Positions 2,127 through 12,620 of a DNA stretch of 20,434 nucleotides are shown one piece after another. The position numbers and the translations under genes were made by a program. This stretch comes from a virus, in the IMG/VR virus record IMGVR_UViG_3300042458_000668, positions 1 to 20,434 of that record; one strand, 5' to 3'. A model generated the notes under the pieces. That model was not told the origin of the DNA and ran no database searches. It was given only the letters and a program-made list of their open reading frames with translations. The stretch's first letter is position 1. Each line of letters begins with the position of its first letter.

Positions 2127-3533
2127 ATGAATAAAAAATTAATAACAGAATCGGGAATAAGAAATATCAGAGAATTATCCAGAAGATATCCTGAGGCTAA
2201 AATATACTTTCACCAAGATTTAGATGGGGTTACCACTGCGTTGGGTATGAAAAATTACTTAGAAGAAAACGGTATAAAAGTGGTTGACGCTGAGATTATC
2301 CAATATGGTGATAAGGAATTTGCGATTAAGAAATTAGATGCCGAAGGTGATGTTATGCCAGTGTTAGTTGACTTTGCTCATGGTAAACCAATGTTTGTTA
2401 TTCACACGGATCACCACGACACACAAGCTGGTGTTGAACAAGGTACCGCAACTAATTTTAAATCTTCAAGGTCAAATGTTGAAACAATATCTCAAACCGT
2501 ATCTCCAAGAGACATTTTCCCAACAGATGATATTACTTTGATTTCAACTGTAGATTCTGCAAACTATGCTCAACATGATATTAGTCCTGAAGAAGTAATG
2601 AACTATTTGTTTAAGGTTGATAAAGATCAATCCTTACAAAGAAACAAAATGGTAATGGGTATGGTAACTAATAAGTTATTGTTGGCATTCAAAAACAAAC
2701 CAGGGTTCTTGGAAAATATTGTAATGAATGCGAATCCATCTTTATTAAGTATATTATTAAACATCAGATCTCAGATAAAAGAAAAGAACTATGCGGATGT
2801 TGAATCTTTGGAAAAAAACAAAGAGAACTATGTTCAAACAATGAAGACACATAAGAATGTTAACGTTGATGATAATGTTATTGTTCAGTATGGTGGTGGT
2901 AGTATGATGAAACCAGGATCCTACGATAGATATACACCATTCAGAAATAATCCTGAGGCTGACTTCTTAGTAATTGCTTGGCCTTTAGGGTTGGTACAAG
3001 CGTCTTGTAACCCATTTAAGAAAGAAAGGGCACTTAAAGGTGTGAACTTAGGTGAGATTAAAGATGAGGTGTTAAACAAGTGGAAATCACAATTACAGGA
3101 CAAGGATATTCCTCTATCAACAATCAAATGGATATCAGAATCGGGAAAAGATTTTGGTGAGCAATCAGTTGGTTTTACATTCAGAGATTTCAATGCGTTA
3201 TATGGTAAAGAATTTAAAAAAATGATTGATGGGGAGGACATTCTTAATGATGTTGATAAGATAATGAAAAAACCATTCAGTGAATTAAGAGACGAAGAAA
3301 TGAAATTGTTAGATTCAATTAGTGTGAACGCTTGGGACCTTATTCAATCTAATAGCGGTGGTCACAAATGTATTACAAATATTTCTGGGTTATCTTACTT
3401 AGGTAGATCTAAACGACCACCTGAGGGTAAATACAAATATAACGCTGAGTCAGATGATTCACCTTATGTAAAATTTACAAAGATGGTTCAGAATGAGTTT
3501 GTGAGAGTATTGAAAGAAAAAATGAAAGATTAA
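2127..3533 (+). CDS. DHH-family phosphoesterase (RecJ/NrnA-like)
   Basis: The 468-residue protein carries the DHH superfamily signatures: H29-Q-D31-L-D33-G34 (motif I), V-D82-F-A-H85 (motif II) and H93-T-D95-H96-H97-D (the DHH motif). A C-terminal G411-G412-H413-K is typical of DHHA1 substrate-binding domains. Family members are manganese-dependent single-strand exonucleases, nanoRNases or cyclic-dinucleotide phosphodiesterases; which applies here is open. The N terminus begins K-L-I-T-E-S-G-I, loosely like the tag on the virion-type proteins of this window, but the DHH core starts right after it. The gene has a TATTTATA promoter 3 bases upstream. It is transcribed towards the DUF192 gene and the two stop codons overlap. 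Confidence 0.85.
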   Translation: MNKKLITESGIRNIRELSRRYPEAKIYFHQDLDGVTTALGMKNYLEENGIKVVDAEIIQYGDKEFAIKKLDAEGDVMPVLVDFAHGKPMFVIHTDHHDTQAGVEQGTATNFKSSRSNVETISQTVSPRDIFPTDDITLISTVDSANYAQHDISPEEVMNYLFKVDKDQSLQRNKMVMGMVTNKLLLAFKNKPGFLENIVMNANPSLLSILLNIRSQIKEKNYADVESLEKNKENYVQTMKTHKNVNVDDNVIVQYGGGSMMKPGSYDRYTPFRNNPEADFLVIAWPLGLVQASCNPFKKERALKGVNLGEIKDEVLNKWKSQLQDKDIPLSTIKWISESGKDFGEQSVGFTFRDFNALYGKEFKKMIDGEDILNDVDKIMKKPFSELRDEEMKLLDSISVNAWDLIQSNSGGHKCITNISGLSYLGRSKRPPEGKYKYNAESDDSPYVKFTKMVQNEFVRVLKEKMKD

Positions 3534-3877
3534 TCTTGTAAAATAATAGTATCGCCTTCAGCTATATCGTATTTAATACAAGTACCACCTTTAAGTTCTA
3601 ATACCATATCTCCATTACCTGTGTAACGATCGCATTCAGGTGCGTCACACGGTTTACAGTTATTATGTATTTTGTTAATTTTATTATCTTTTATAAAAAT
3701 TATATCTAAAGATATGATACAGTTCTTCATCCAAAAAGAATGATCACCATCCTTCATTATGAATAACATACCATCAAAACTTTTATCAAATTTTTTATCC
3801 ATCATACCGTTTTGTATGTCTTTACTGGTTATAACACATTTGACATTGAATAAATTATTGTTTACTATTAATTCCAT
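3530..3877 (-). CDS. DUF192 family protein
   Basis: This 115-residue protein is the only minus-strand gene in the window. It shows the DUF192 pattern: G-M-M near residue 24, G-M-L-F, F-W-M-K-N-C, I-S-L-D-I-I-F-I, then a C-K-P-C...C-D-R-Y block and V-L-E-L-K-G-G. DUF192 proteins are small beta-rich proteins of unknown biochemical role that are usually exported in bacteria. No signal peptide is visible here, so this copy is probably cytoplasmic. Its start is 23 bases from the start of the divergent Nudix gene, with a minus-strand TATTTATA 5 bases upstream. It converges on the DHH gene with overlapping stops. Confidence 0.8.
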   Translation of the reverse strand: MELIVNNNLFNVKCVITSKDIQNGMMDKKFDKSFDGMLFIMKDGDHSFWMKNCIISLDIIFIKDNKINKIHNNCKPCDAPECDRYTGNGDMVLELKGGTCIKYDIAEGDTIILQD

Positions 3878-3900: not shown

Positions 3901-4311
3901 ATGAAATCAGATAGAAGTTCAGGTGTAATATTAAAATATGGTAATAAAGTTTTGTTATGTAAACGAGCTGACCATGAAACTTATGCGGGTAAATGGTTTA
4001 TTCCATCAGGGCATATGGAAGCAAACGAAACTCCAAGAGATTGTGCTTATCGTGAGTTTTATGAAGAGACAAACATTAAGATTGAAGACGAAATAAGTTT
4101 GGTTGGGTTCATAACAAAAAAAGATGATGATGGAGATCCGAAGGGTTTAATTTATGTGTATCTATATGAATCTGACAAGAAAATGACACCAAACTTGGAT
4201 AAAGCAAAAGATGGGCATGAACATTCAGATTTTGGGTTTTTTACGTTAGAAGACCTTCCAATTGGTAAAAATGAAGAATTATACAAGATTTTAACAAAAA
4301 TTTTAAATTAA
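3901..4311 (+). CDS. Nudix hydrolase
   Basis: The 136-residue protein has a complete Nudix box, G-x5-E-x7-R-E-F-Y-E-E-T-N-I, within P-S-G-H-M-E-A-N-E-T-P and R-E-F-Y-E-E-T-N-I (about residues 36-58). This magnesium-binding fold hydrolyses nucleoside diphosphates linked to another group. Candidate substrates include oxidised or modified dNTPs, ADP-ribose, NAD-type compounds and capped or triphosphate RNA 5' ends; the sequence does not decide. It starts in the 23-bp divergent region shared with DUF192. The ATG at 3901 directly follows TTATA, so this transcript may also be leaderless. Confidence 0.9.
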   Translation: MKSDRSSGVILKYGNKVLLCKRADHETYAGKWFIPSGHMEANETPRDCAYREFYEETNIKIEDEISLVGFITKKDDDGDPKGLIYVYLYESDKKMTPNLDKAKDGHEHSDFGFFTLEDLPIGKNEELYKILTKILN

Positions 4312-4346
4312 AAGTAAATTTTTTTGACTTTTACTAAAGTATTATA

Positions 4347-4354
4347 TATTTATA
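4347..4354 (+). promoter_or_regulatory. TATTTATA promoter in front of a candidate small RNA
   Basis: The octamer lies in a non-coding stretch, 36 bases after the Nudix stop. No credible ORF follows it before the terminator at 4415-4451. Confidence 0.45.
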
Positions 4355-4357
4355 TTA

Positions 4358-4451
4358 CACAAAAAAACAACCAATACCCTTCCTTTCTACGAATTAATTG
4401 GTTTATCAATATTAATCCCATGTTTTTTGAGAAAAAAGTATGGGATTTTTT
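4358..4451 (+). ncRNA. Candidate phage small RNA of about 90 nt
   Basis: Between a TATTTATA element and a strong terminator there is a segment of about 90 bases without a convincing reading frame. It can form a 7-bp helix AACCAAT (4369-4375) with ATTGGTT (4397-4403) and then the terminator hairpin. A TTG-initiated frame does cross the region, but its coding sequence is better started at 4498. The RNA boundaries and its existence are inferred from promoter, helix and terminator only. Confidence 0.4.
4415..4451 (+). terminator. Rho-independent terminator
   Basis: A long stem pairs ATCCCAT (4415-4421) with ATGGGAT (4440-4446), continues through a G-U pair and one bulged G, and ends in TTTTTT/AAAAAA around the loop GAG. 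A run of Ts follows from 4446 to 4451. It separates the region above from the gene at 4498. Confidence 0.75.
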
Positions 4452-4472: not shown

Positions 4473-4480
4473 TATATTTG
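4473..4480 (+). promoter_or_regulatory. Bacteroidota-type -7 promoter element TATATTTG
   Basis: TATATTTG fits the Bacteroidota -7 consensus TAnnTTTG and lies 17 bases before the ATG at 4498. No clear -33 TTTG is seen at the expected distance. Confidence 0.55.
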
Positions 4481-4497: not shown

Positions 4498-4830
4498 ATG
4501 GGTAGTTACATCAATACATTCAAGAAAAAATTCAACAAGAAAGCAACCCTTGATGGGCAAGAAGTAATTGTTGGACAAGCAACATTTTTATGTAGACAAG
4601 ATTGGTCAGGTATTTACACACCATCTGAAAGTAGAGAAATGACAAGAGCATATGCTTTGACTGAAAATGATCAACCTGATTATATTATATTTGAAGGTGA
4701 AACGGTTTATAAAAATAATAAACGTGGCGTTTGGTCTGATGGTTCTGGTTTTTGGTCAGGTATTGATCCTCAAAAAGATTTTGTTGGTACACTAAAAAAA
4801 GTGGGTAAAAAATTTGTAATTGAGAAATAA
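4498..4830 (+). CDS. Hypothetical protein (110 aa)
   Basis: I do not recognise this family. The protein begins with a basic stretch (K-K-K-F-N-K-K) and is otherwise a soluble, beta-rich sequence with two W-S-G repeats (W-S-G-I-Y and W-S-G-I-D) about 60 residues apart and a single cysteine. I chose the ATG at 4498 because an upstream TTG start would place a terminator and a promoter inside the coding sequence. It has its own TAnnTTTG promoter and is followed 17 bases later by the next gene, which has a promoter of its own. Confidence 0.7.
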   Translation: MGSYINTFKKKFNKKATLDGQEVIVGQATFLCRQDWSGIYTPSESREMTRAYALTENDQPDYIIFEGETVYKNNKRGVWSDGSGFWSGIDPQKDFVGTLKKVGKKFVIEK

Positions 4831-4843
4831 TTAACTATATTTG
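4813..4843 (+). promoter_or_regulatory. Bacteroidota-type promoter, TTTG-N19-TATATTTG
   Basis: TTTG at 4813-4816, a 19-base spacer and TATATTTG at 4836-4843 match the Bacteroidota -33/-7 consensus. The -7 element ends four bases before the ATG at 4848. The -33 part lies in the last codons of the upstream gene. Confidence 0.7.
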
Positions 4844-4847
4844 TTAT

Positions 4848-5123
4848 ATGAATAAGACGGGTTTCAACATAAAAGTAGTAAGTGATAAGTTCGGTGATTT
4901 AATCAACGAGACATTCATGGATCAGACACAATTCAGAATCTTTTTGAAGATGGTACACGGAGCATTGGTATTAGAAGAAGACTTGAGTTTCTTCAACGGA
5001 GATACATTCTTGGTTCACATCCCAAATAAGGTATTGAAAGATTCGGTTATCGTTACTAACGTTAAGGAAGTTTCATTAACTGAACAAGTTAAAAGTAAGA
5101 TTGAGGCGTTGGTAACAAACTAA
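4848..5123 (+). CDS. Hypothetical protein (91 aa)
   Basis: No family is recognised. The sequence is soluble and mixed alpha/beta in character, with no cysteine and no membrane segment. The start is fixed by the promoter: TATATTTG ends four bases upstream, so the mRNA should begin at or very near this ATG. The 3' side carries two extra hairpins and then a UUCG-capped terminator. The gene is monocistronic. Confidence 0.75.
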   Translation: MNKTGFNIKVVSDKFGDLINETFMDQTQFRIFLKMVHGALVLEEDLSFFNGDTFLVHIPNKVLKDSVIVTNVKEVSLTEQVKSKIEALVTN

Positions 5124-9211: not shown

Positions 9212-9219
9212 TATTTATA
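9212..9219 (+). promoter_or_regulatory. TATTTATA promoter of the HExxH protein gene
   Basis: TATTTATA-TGT-ATG: the element ends three bases before the only usable start codon, since the next in-frame Met is far into the protein. The mRNA would therefore be leaderless or nearly so. Confidence 0.6.
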
Positions 9220-9222
9220 TGT

Positions 9223-10458
9223 ATGAAGATTATATTAACAGAAACACAATACAAAATACTTAACGAAGCGTTAGGGGTTCCTGAAGGTATTTTAGATACT
9301 GCATCAGATTTATATGAAATAGTTGAAAATTTAATTAAGGGAATTGATTATAAAAAAGACGAATATATTTTTAACCAAAGTGTTGATTTAACTATTTCGG
9401 ATTATCAGATTGATTCACTTGATCTTCATGTTAATGTTGAGCATATTCCAGGTTATGATGGGAAGGCTGAACTTGCATCTATGGCTATGGGTCAAAATTT
9501 TAATTATAATAGAAAAATACAATTAAAAGTTCAGTTATTAGATACTGAAATAGAATTACATATAACATTTGTCGTTGGTAATGAATGGGAACCTGAAGAT
9601 TTATATGAAAGATTTACACAAGATCGTGTTGAAACTGAATCCACTTTGGCTCATGAGTTAAAACATAAGTACGACAAACAGAAAAAACAATTTGATTTAA
9701 TTGGTAAAGACGCTCAATACCAAACTTACTCTAAAGGAAATTTAAGGTTTGGAATACCTGAGATTGACCATAAGTTTATGAGGTACAATTATTTTATGCA
9801 AGTTGCCGAAAGTTTAGTTAGACCAACTGAACTTGCGTCAAGAATGAGACAAAGGAAAATTTTAAAATCTAAGTTTTTAAATTTCCTTAAAGAAGACAGA
9901 TCATTTAAAGAGATTTTAGAAATTAGGGATTATAGTTTTGAAAAGTTAATTGATGGTTTAAAAGAACAAATGGATAGAGTGGATGCGTTAATTAAACATA
10001 TTGGACAATATAATGAAAATTTAACTGAAGACGAAAAGATTAAAATAACATTAAAATTAGTTTATGTGAACTTGGTGAATAATAACGTTGAGTTATTTGA
10101 TCAAATGACATCAACACCTTTAGACAGATATGGTATTAGGGCTTTATTTAATAATGCATTTGGTGGTGGATTACTTCCGCAAGATGAAGAAGAAAAAAAC
10201 TTACAAAAAGTAAGACAAAAATTCATCAACTATTTGACAAAGTATGATGATGATCCTATTATGTTCTTTAAAGATATATGTAAACAATTATCTGACGACG
10301 CAAACAAAATTATTAAAAAACTAGGTAAACTTTACGCAATGGCAGAAGACGATCAACCAATGAATGAATCTATAATCAATTGGGAACTTCATCAACAACT
10401 GATGGAAAAAAAATACGGTAAAAGAAAAATAGAAACCGAATTTAAATTCAAAAAATAG
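9223..10458 (+). CDS. HExxH putative zinc metallopeptidase with N-terminal virion-type tag
   Basis: The 411-residue protein starts with the tag I-L-T-E-T-Q-Y-K-I-L-N-E15-A16, which ends in a perfect T4-type prohead-protease site (L-N-E|A). A zinc-peptidase signature A-H144-E145-L-K-H148 follows within a helix-like segment. Possible third ligands are E196 (in V-A-E-S-L) or E203 (in R-P-T-E-L). The C-terminal half is helical and highly charged, with no recognised domain. No membrane segment or signal peptide is seen. HExxH also occurs by chance, so enzymatic activity is a proposal. If the tag is a capsid-targeting signal, this would be a protease packed in the phage head and delivered into the host. 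It is a single-gene unit behind a TATTTATA promoter. Confidence 0.65.
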   Translation: MKIILTETQYKILNEALGVPEGILDTASDLYEIVENLIKGIDYKKDEYIFNQSVDLTISDYQIDSLDLHVNVEHIPGYDGKAELASMAMGQNFNYNRKIQLKVQLLDTEIELHITFVVGNEWEPEDLYERFTQDRVETESTLAHELKHKYDKQKKQFDLIGKDAQYQTYSKGNLRFGIPEIDHKFMRYNYFMQVAESLVRPTELASRMRQRKILKSKFLNFLKEDRSFKEILEIRDYSFEKLIDGLKEQMDRVDALIKHIGQYNENLTEDEKIKITLKLVYVNLVNNNVELFDQMTSTPLDRYGIRALFNNAFGGGLLPQDEEEKNLQKVRQKFINYLTKYDDDPIMFFKDICKQLSDDANKIIKKLGKLYAMAEDDQPMNESIINWELHQQLMEKKYGKRKIETEFKFKK

Positions 10459-12437: not shown

Positions 12438-12445
12438 TATTTATA
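12438..12445 (+). promoter_or_regulatory. TATTTATA promoter of the homing-endonuclease unit
   Basis: The octamer, within TATATTTATA, ends four bases before the ATG at 12450. The unit therefore carries its own promoter of the probable late type. Confidence 0.55.
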
Positions 12446-12449
12446 TTAT

Positions 12450-12620
12450 ATGGGACGATTAAAAAAATACAAAACGGAAGAGGAGAAAAAAGAGGCTCAA
12501 AAAAAATGGGCTAATCAGTATTACCATCGTAACAAAGAACGAATAAATAAAATTGCTATGGAGAAATATTATGAACTACAAAAAAGTGTACGACCAGATA
12601 ATCCTGAGGGCGAAGAGTGA
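12450..12620 (+). CDS. Small charged protein preceding the HNH endonuclease (56 aa)
   Basis: This frame starts four bases after a TATTTATA element and encodes 56 residues: a start M-G-R-L-K-K-Y-K-T-E-E-E-K-K-E-A, then Y-Y-H-R-N-K-E-R-I-N-K and E-K-Y-Y-E-L. Such Lys/Glu-rich helices with Y-Y-x-R-N-K-E patterns are often found at or next to the N termini of phage homing endonucleases, probably for DNA contact. It overlaps the endonuclease gene by 50 bases in a different frame. It could be a separate coupled protein, or the first part of an endonuclease made by frameshifting. Confidence 0.55.
   Translation: MGRLKKYKTEEEKKEAQKKWANQYYHRNKERINKIAMEKYYELQKSVRPDNPEGEE

Follow-up and report, generated by a model that had tools for sequence, protein, structure and literature searches.

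A predicted small RNA family of large Bacteroidota phages, with the host rpsU leader as a candidate target

Small RNAs such as Staphylococcus aureus RNAIII and the UCCC-motif RNAs use a C-rich loop to pair with Shine-Dalgarno (SD) sites. Phages also encode base-pairing small RNAs directed at host mRNAs, as described in PMC12197685 for PreS of lambda, which acts on dnaN, and for IpeX, which acts on ompC. In the Flavobacteriales, rpsU is reported to be virtually the sole gene with a strong SD, and to be translated by ribosomes free of bS21 (PMC9976891, PMC8710568); bS21 autoregulation acts via the extended SD of rpsU (PMC9976891). Freshwater phages that themselves encode bS21, with predicted Bacteroidetes hosts, have been described by Chen et al. 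2022 (PMC9723584).

Like PreS and IpeX (PMC12197685), the element described here is a predicted small RNA gene in a phage genome for which a host mRNA target is proposed. It differs from them in belonging to Bacteroidota phages, in its putative late-type promoter, in a CU-rich loop that resembles the 16S rRNA tail and in its broad conservation, as well as in having a ribosomal-protein gene as proposed target and no Rfam family. With RNAIII and the UCCC-motif RNAs it shares an unpaired C-rich loop complementary to the SD, but the host lineage is one nearly without SD sites, and it is this near absence that could make an anti-SD loop gene-specific. As in the autoregulation of Flavobacterium johnsoniae rpsU, the extended SD would be the site of action; there the partner is 16S rRNA, whereas here a phage RNA is proposed as competitor (PMC9976891).

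The window, that is, the whole stretch of 20,434 nucleotides that was analysed (positions 1 to 20,434 of IMG/VR record IMGVR_UViG_3300042458_000668), contains a short non-coding stretch that is bounded, as read from the sequence, by a promoter and an intrinsic terminator, and that is conserved as RNA and not as protein. From the -35-like box to the terminator, the whole self-contained unit occupies 4324-4451 (Table 1). The original prediction had placed a small RNA with dedicated promoter and terminator at this site, and comparison of versions from many phages bears this out at the level of prediction. The promoter-like box, the 7-bp helix, the strong terminator (a stem of 15 pairs at 4414-4447, then T) and the host-type promoter of the next gene could all be read where they had been proposed; the -35-like TTGACT is a further element that had been overlooked. 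The 5' end of the RNA was set from the box spacing and a conserved ACAAA.

Table 1. Features of the predicted small RNA gene and its surroundings in the window
Feature	Position	Strand	Basis or remark
NUDIX hydrolase gene	3901..4311	+	PF00293, E 3e-22; constant upstream neighbour
-35-like box TTGACT	4324..4329	+	17 nt upstream of -10 hexamer TATTTA
TATTTATA, phage-type -10 box	4347..4354	+	sequence reading; invariant in 20 A1 rows
Predicted small RNA, ~93 nt	4359..4451	+	layout and sequence kept in 41 distinct versions
Loop hairpin, 5' arm AACCAAT	4369..4375	+	folding; other clades pair here by hand
CU-rich exposed loop CCCTTCCTTTCTA, putative base-pairing seed	4377..4389	+	pyrimidine-rich in every clade
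Loop hairpin, 3' arm ATTGGTT	4397..4403	+	TGGT invariant in 21/21 representatives
Intrinsic terminator AATCCCAT...ATGGGATT and T run	4414..4451	+	predicted stem; covariation
Host-type -7 element TATATTTG of the next gene	4473..4480	+	fits Bacteroidetes consensus TANNTTTG
Next gene, 110 aa, without known family	4498..4830	+	ATG at 4498

Relatives of the next gene were taken from IMG/VR (the best 80 of 85, with 4501-4827 as query, the first codon left off), and the element was then sought by pattern. The same layout was found in 54 of 56 exact-pattern matches; matches L090 and L106 are non-members, and L092 and L132 are members cut by the end of the locus. A covariance model trained on 20 distinct versions recovered more divergent versions missed by the pattern, and when whole records were searched 20 of 28 matched at E <=5e-4, with one strong site each. 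No second copy was credible, the extra model matches either scoring below 31 bits or being the main-site terminator read on the opposite strand. A scan with gene 4848 (the best 80 of 133 relatives) led to further clades; many loci of the second pattern scan were rejected as coding false matches (for example L159, L161 and L163). The extraction comprised 41 distinct versions, one of which, from L283, is cut short; a 42nd row, on the minus strand of L188, is false and was dropped before upstream genes, downstream genes and -35 boxes were counted, but it is still among the 42 rows tested for reading frames. A model built from clade E only again located clades A, D2 and F at their known positions (E 1.5e-6, 1.2e-5 and 6.6e-5, respectively), had no match in G006, G014, G021, G025 and LR756502, and gave in LR745206 weak matches only, at other places.

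Across the clades the parts keep one order: TATTTATA, about 4 nt, ACAAA, the 5' arm, a CU-rich loop, the 3' arm (TGGT), a short linker and the terminator. Within clade A (12 versions), 39 of the 45 positions of 4359-4403 are invariant (mean conservation 0.974), and conservation is as high in the loop region as in the terminator. The flanking promoter spacers are less conserved than the RNA body (0.72-0.83), and the stretch past the terminator, including the next promoter, has a conservation of 0.95. A search of Rfam 15 gave no match at the curated gathering score, the best sub-threshold hit having 20.8 bits versus 67. We consider it highly probable from these comparisons that the sequences constitute a new small RNA family of large Bacteroidota phages, one that belongs to no Rfam family. 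Genes 4848 and 4498 found no match in a search of isolate phages (50,697 records). Another gene of the window, gene 2127 (2127-3533), encodes a protein of 468 aa whose DHH match is weak and below the cut-off, and its only INPHARED relatives are four records of uncultured huge phages (635-735 kb, 27-44% identity). Two of about 640 kb match it at 39-43%, and two of 735 kb over 29% of its length. Of the two 640-kb records, one had no match to model R2, and the other had only weak matches, distant from the gene-2127 relative.

Covariation supports the terminator: in an alignment of 15 sequences (A4), 98% of cells are paired, four pairs have changed on both sides, and the covariation score was reached by 0 of 500 shuffles. 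In the loop hairpin, for which the original prediction had looked to compensating changes, these appear only when clades are compared by hand, because automatic alignments put the arms of distant clades out of register. The arms, paired by hand, read AACCAAT/ATTGGTT in clade A, AGCCAAT/ATTGGTT in L013, CATTAC/GTAATG and CATTACA/TGTAATG in clade D, CTAAATC/GGTTTAG in clade E and ACCA(A)TCA/TGATGGT in clade H, so that by this pairing the hairpin recurs with different letters at the same place. MAFFT with RNAalifold detected no covariation in the loop hairpin, returning four pairs that are invariant or nearly so. As for stability, 4358-4451 folds with z = -3.0, mainly owing to the terminator, and the loop hairpin of the window alone is marginal (z -1.9, p 0.046). 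Only 3 of the 20 clade representatives had a hairpin that beat shuffles at p < 0.05, and since the other 17 fail we dropped hairpin stability as proof of an RNA. The loop is pyrimidine-rich in every clade, with substitutions that stay within the pyrimidine class, and CCTTCTTCTTA is invariant in 12 of 12 clade E rows.

We infer that TATTTATA is a late-type phage promoter box, since it is oriented and precedes structural genes. In G029, a 290-kb relative, it occurs 114 times, 63 of them between genes despite an ORF coverage of 93%, and 49 of the 63 intergenic sites lie no more than 40 nt upstream of a same-strand ATG; of 67 occurrences of the control TATTATTA, 12 are intergenic. Its reverse complement TATAAATA is near an ATG at only 15 of 63 sites, which makes TATTTATA the gene-pointing form. 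The T4-type late promoter consensus is TATAAATA, and a T4-type late promoter was rejected on the same comparison (15 of 63 versus 49 of 63). Among the 348 ORFs of G029, 83 carry TATTTATA or TATTTATT within 45 nt; families were scanned in 43 of these, and the box-bearing ORFs include tail sheath, terminase large subunit, head maturation protease, tail tube, baseplate wedge, virion proteins, NUDIX and others. The promoter of the RNA is set apart from the other TATTTATA promoters by its -35-like box: TTGAC, TTGAT or (once) TTGTTT stands at exactly 17 nt spacing in 25 of 41 versions, most of the others having TTGAA, TTGGT or TTTAC at this place, whereas TTGAC or TTGAT at 14-20 nt was found at 1 of 85 other TATTTATA sites before G029 ORFs.

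The host sigma factor of the Bacteroidetes phylum is described as using TTTG/TANNTTTG, not TTGACA/TATAAT, with 4-5 nt from the -7 element to the transcription start (PMC6847099). In the window, exactly 4 nt separate a TATATTTG -7 element (4836-4848) from the ATG of gene 4848, and the TATTTATA boxes at 2116-2127, 9212-9223 and 12438-12450 end 3-4 nt before an ATG; given that distance of 4-5 nt, the mRNA of gene 4848 would be leaderless and those of the TATTTATA-boxed genes nearly so. A DUF192 gene (3530-3877, minus strand) diverges from the NUDIX gene, and the gap between them holds a TATTTATA box (minus strand, 3890).

The locus is best read as a small RNA gene that has a promoter and a terminator of its own, a reading that is supported because the parts of the element are conserved together while a reading frame is not, the downstream gene changes and the terminator covaries. 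At the level of sequence, the recurrence of the layout in related phages, divergent clades included, is decisive for the element exceeding chance, and the prediction of a real small RNA gene is one in which we place strong confidence. The description of the segment as an isolated transcription unit is to be taken with caution, for a NUDIX gene is always coupled to it upstream: it lies directly upstream in 40 of 41 versions (the exception, L160, has only 110 nt of upstream sequence), with the NUDIX match ending 40-87 nt before the predicted RNA start. This proximity would suit an element that is only the 3' end of the NUDIX transcript, be it a terminator whose hairpin is decorative or an RNA derived from the 3'-UTR and lacking a promoter of its own. 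Such an origin is improbable, however, as a conserved -35/-10 pair at a fixed spacing of 17 nt lies between NUDIX and the RNA, and a loop region conserved like the terminator is needless for a plain terminator. It is less probable still that the element is a cis-acting leader or attenuator, although it does precede a gene and end in a terminator: the first downstream gene varies between the 4498, VNSH and 4848 types and others (at least three different genes), which argues against a leader of one gene, and the constant downstream gene expected of a cis-acting leader or riboswitch was not observed. Moreover, the next gene in the window has its own host-type promoter past the terminator. For a short protein-coding gene we found no supporting point, and its probability is minimal: no frame is kept across versions, the longest from a start codon having 18 aa among the 42 extracted, and version lengths spread over all three classes modulo 3 (42 versions, the false L188 among them), in agreement with the earlier judgement that the stretch holds no credible reading frame.

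The 16S rRNA tail is ACCUCCUUUCUA, and the loops of the family resemble it. Bacteroidota rpsU loci were collected (the best 80 of 563 relatives, with 76 distinct leaders), and a strong purine-rich SD site was recognized by eye in 76 of these 76. The background was taken from two Flavobacterium genomes, which may not be the phages' host: 400 kb of each supplied 305 and 349 gene starts, respectively. Against it, each of the 15 loops tried gave rpsU a rank between 1 and 9 in both sets. Of the 8 clade loops, 7 in the first set and all 8 in the second placed rpsU among the top five, compared with 5 and 4 for the next shared gene. Independent loop shuffles reached the real rpsU score in 0 of 60, and a column permutation shared by the 15 loop rows reached the real value of 139.5 in 0 of 104 (mean 83.8, maximum 130.2), with the proviso that the loops are homologous and the clades not independent, for which the joint permutation corrects partly, and that the loop boundaries were chosen by the analyst. 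Taken singly, 8 of 15 loops paired with rpsU of Flavobacterium leaders at p < 0.05 under mononucleotide shuffles and 6 of 15 under dinucleotide shuffles; the clade H loop did not differ from shuffles. The best duplex, of about 15 bp (dG -20.5 kcal/mol), joins the D3 loop with UUAACGAAAGGGGGUGU of a Flavobacterium rpsU leader. The loop of the window scored -13.3 and -13.1 (rank 4 of 305 and 4 of 349), and by itself its pairing with rpsU is not significant (p 0.087 mononucleotide, 0.193 dinucleotide). Shuffled CU-rich loops rank rpsU equally high in 0 to 11 of 25, and any CU-rich loop tends toward rpsU because rpsU is a rare SD gene. The base-pairing test favours rpsU family-wide, but not by the window's loop alone. 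In Flavobacterium the rpsU SD alternates between GAGAGGAGGTG and GAAAGGGGGTG (L371-L375), of which GAAAGGGGGTG is better for the clade D and F loops.

On the basis of the family-wide complementarity and the known host biology, we tentatively propose that a late phage small RNA silencing host bS21 (rpsU) synthesis is the most likely mechanism. A phage-encoded, trans-acting RNA of about 93 nt would be produced together with the structural (late) genes, as the common TATTTATA box suggests. Its loop would mimic the 16S rRNA 3' tail, pairing with the leader of host rpsU mRNA across the extended SD site (GAGAGGAGGUGU or GAAAGGGGGUGU), and in some clades the pairing may extend into UUAAC just upstream. 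Such pairing would block the translation of rpsU, which is normally carried out by bS21-free ribosomes; host bS21 would then not be replenished, to the advantage of ribosomes that lack bS21 or contain the phage version, which some of these phages encode in SD-less form. The complete scenario, in which a late RNA mimics the anti-SD tail and silences rpsU where ribosomes hide that tail, with bS21 being lost or exchanged in the phage's favour, is possible, and we offer it with more reserve.

Somewhat unlikely, in our estimate, is a trans-acting or protein-binding RNA with another partner, acting on several host mRNAs or through mimicry of the 16S tail; as such a mimic it might occupy the bS21/bS18/bS6 pocket or another RNA-binding protein. 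A loop that is pyrimidine-rich in all clades and tolerates substitutions within that class would be in keeping with this, as would the fact that some loops score other host starts as high as or higher than rpsU (for clade C, rpsU has rank 9 of 305); yet rpsU is common to more clade loops than any other start in both genome stretches. Regulation of phage mRNAs by pairing near start codons has little probability. When the loops of 13 records were paired with the ORF starts of the same record (113 ortholog groups, each represented in 4 or more genomes), no phage mRNA target rose above shuffled loops. The best group, which encodes a small membrane-like protein (MIQLVMFMIAAYGMTTILVYGSIFN) and has a G-rich stretch upstream, did reach z 6.7, but shuffled loops reached z 5.9 in 8 trials; in 9 of 13 records the best real pairing fell short of the average best pairing of shuffled loops, and in the remaining 4 it was stronger by at most 0.9 kcal/mol. 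The MIQLVMFMIAAYGMTTILVYGSIFN protein is itself conserved (G002 38697-39050, G029 137743-138150 and orthologs), and in several clades the G-rich stretch upstream of its gene is complementary to the loop of the RNA, though no more than chance would give.

The proposed silencing of host rpsU touches on the phages that encode bS21. We found bS21 genes in 4 of 21 records (G006, G014, G029 and G031), most records being fragments and the window 20 kb long. Among records searched for both, the bS21 gene and the RNA occur together in G029 and G031 only; in G006 and G014, which have the bS21 gene, the RNA was not detected. Of 13 sequences tested, 12 lack the bS21 region altogether, namely the window and 11 other contigs. 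G029 and G031 (about 290 kb) are like the phages of Chen et al. 2022, in which bS21 is 'on the reverse strand' (PMC9723584): their bS21 gene lies on the strand opposite to its neighbours, as it does in all three loci inspected (L285 1492-1677, L286 1492-1680, L287 1474-1659, minus). Unlike host rpsU, none of these three has an SD upstream. In G029 both genes flanking bS21 carry TATTTATA-type boxes, and the closest solved relative of the bS21 protein is chain 7jil_z. The terms 'small RNA', 'non-coding' and 'promoter' do not occur in the main text of Chen et al. 2022 (PMC9723584), and the difference from the phages described there is that an RNA acting on host bS21 is proposed here.

A literature search, partial in coverage (titles and abstracts), yielded nothing describing this RNA or a phage small RNA against rpsU; the part of PMC9976891 that speculates that phage products may aid bS21 exchange names no RNA. 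Being an uncatalogued phage RNA family present in many IMG/VR contigs at a fixed genomic address, the element is open to detection and testing across many genomes. Should the rpsU reading prove true, it would bear on why Bacteroidota retain an anti-SD that is sequestered and has a single strong client gene, and on how the phages of these hosts exchange ribosomal bS21.
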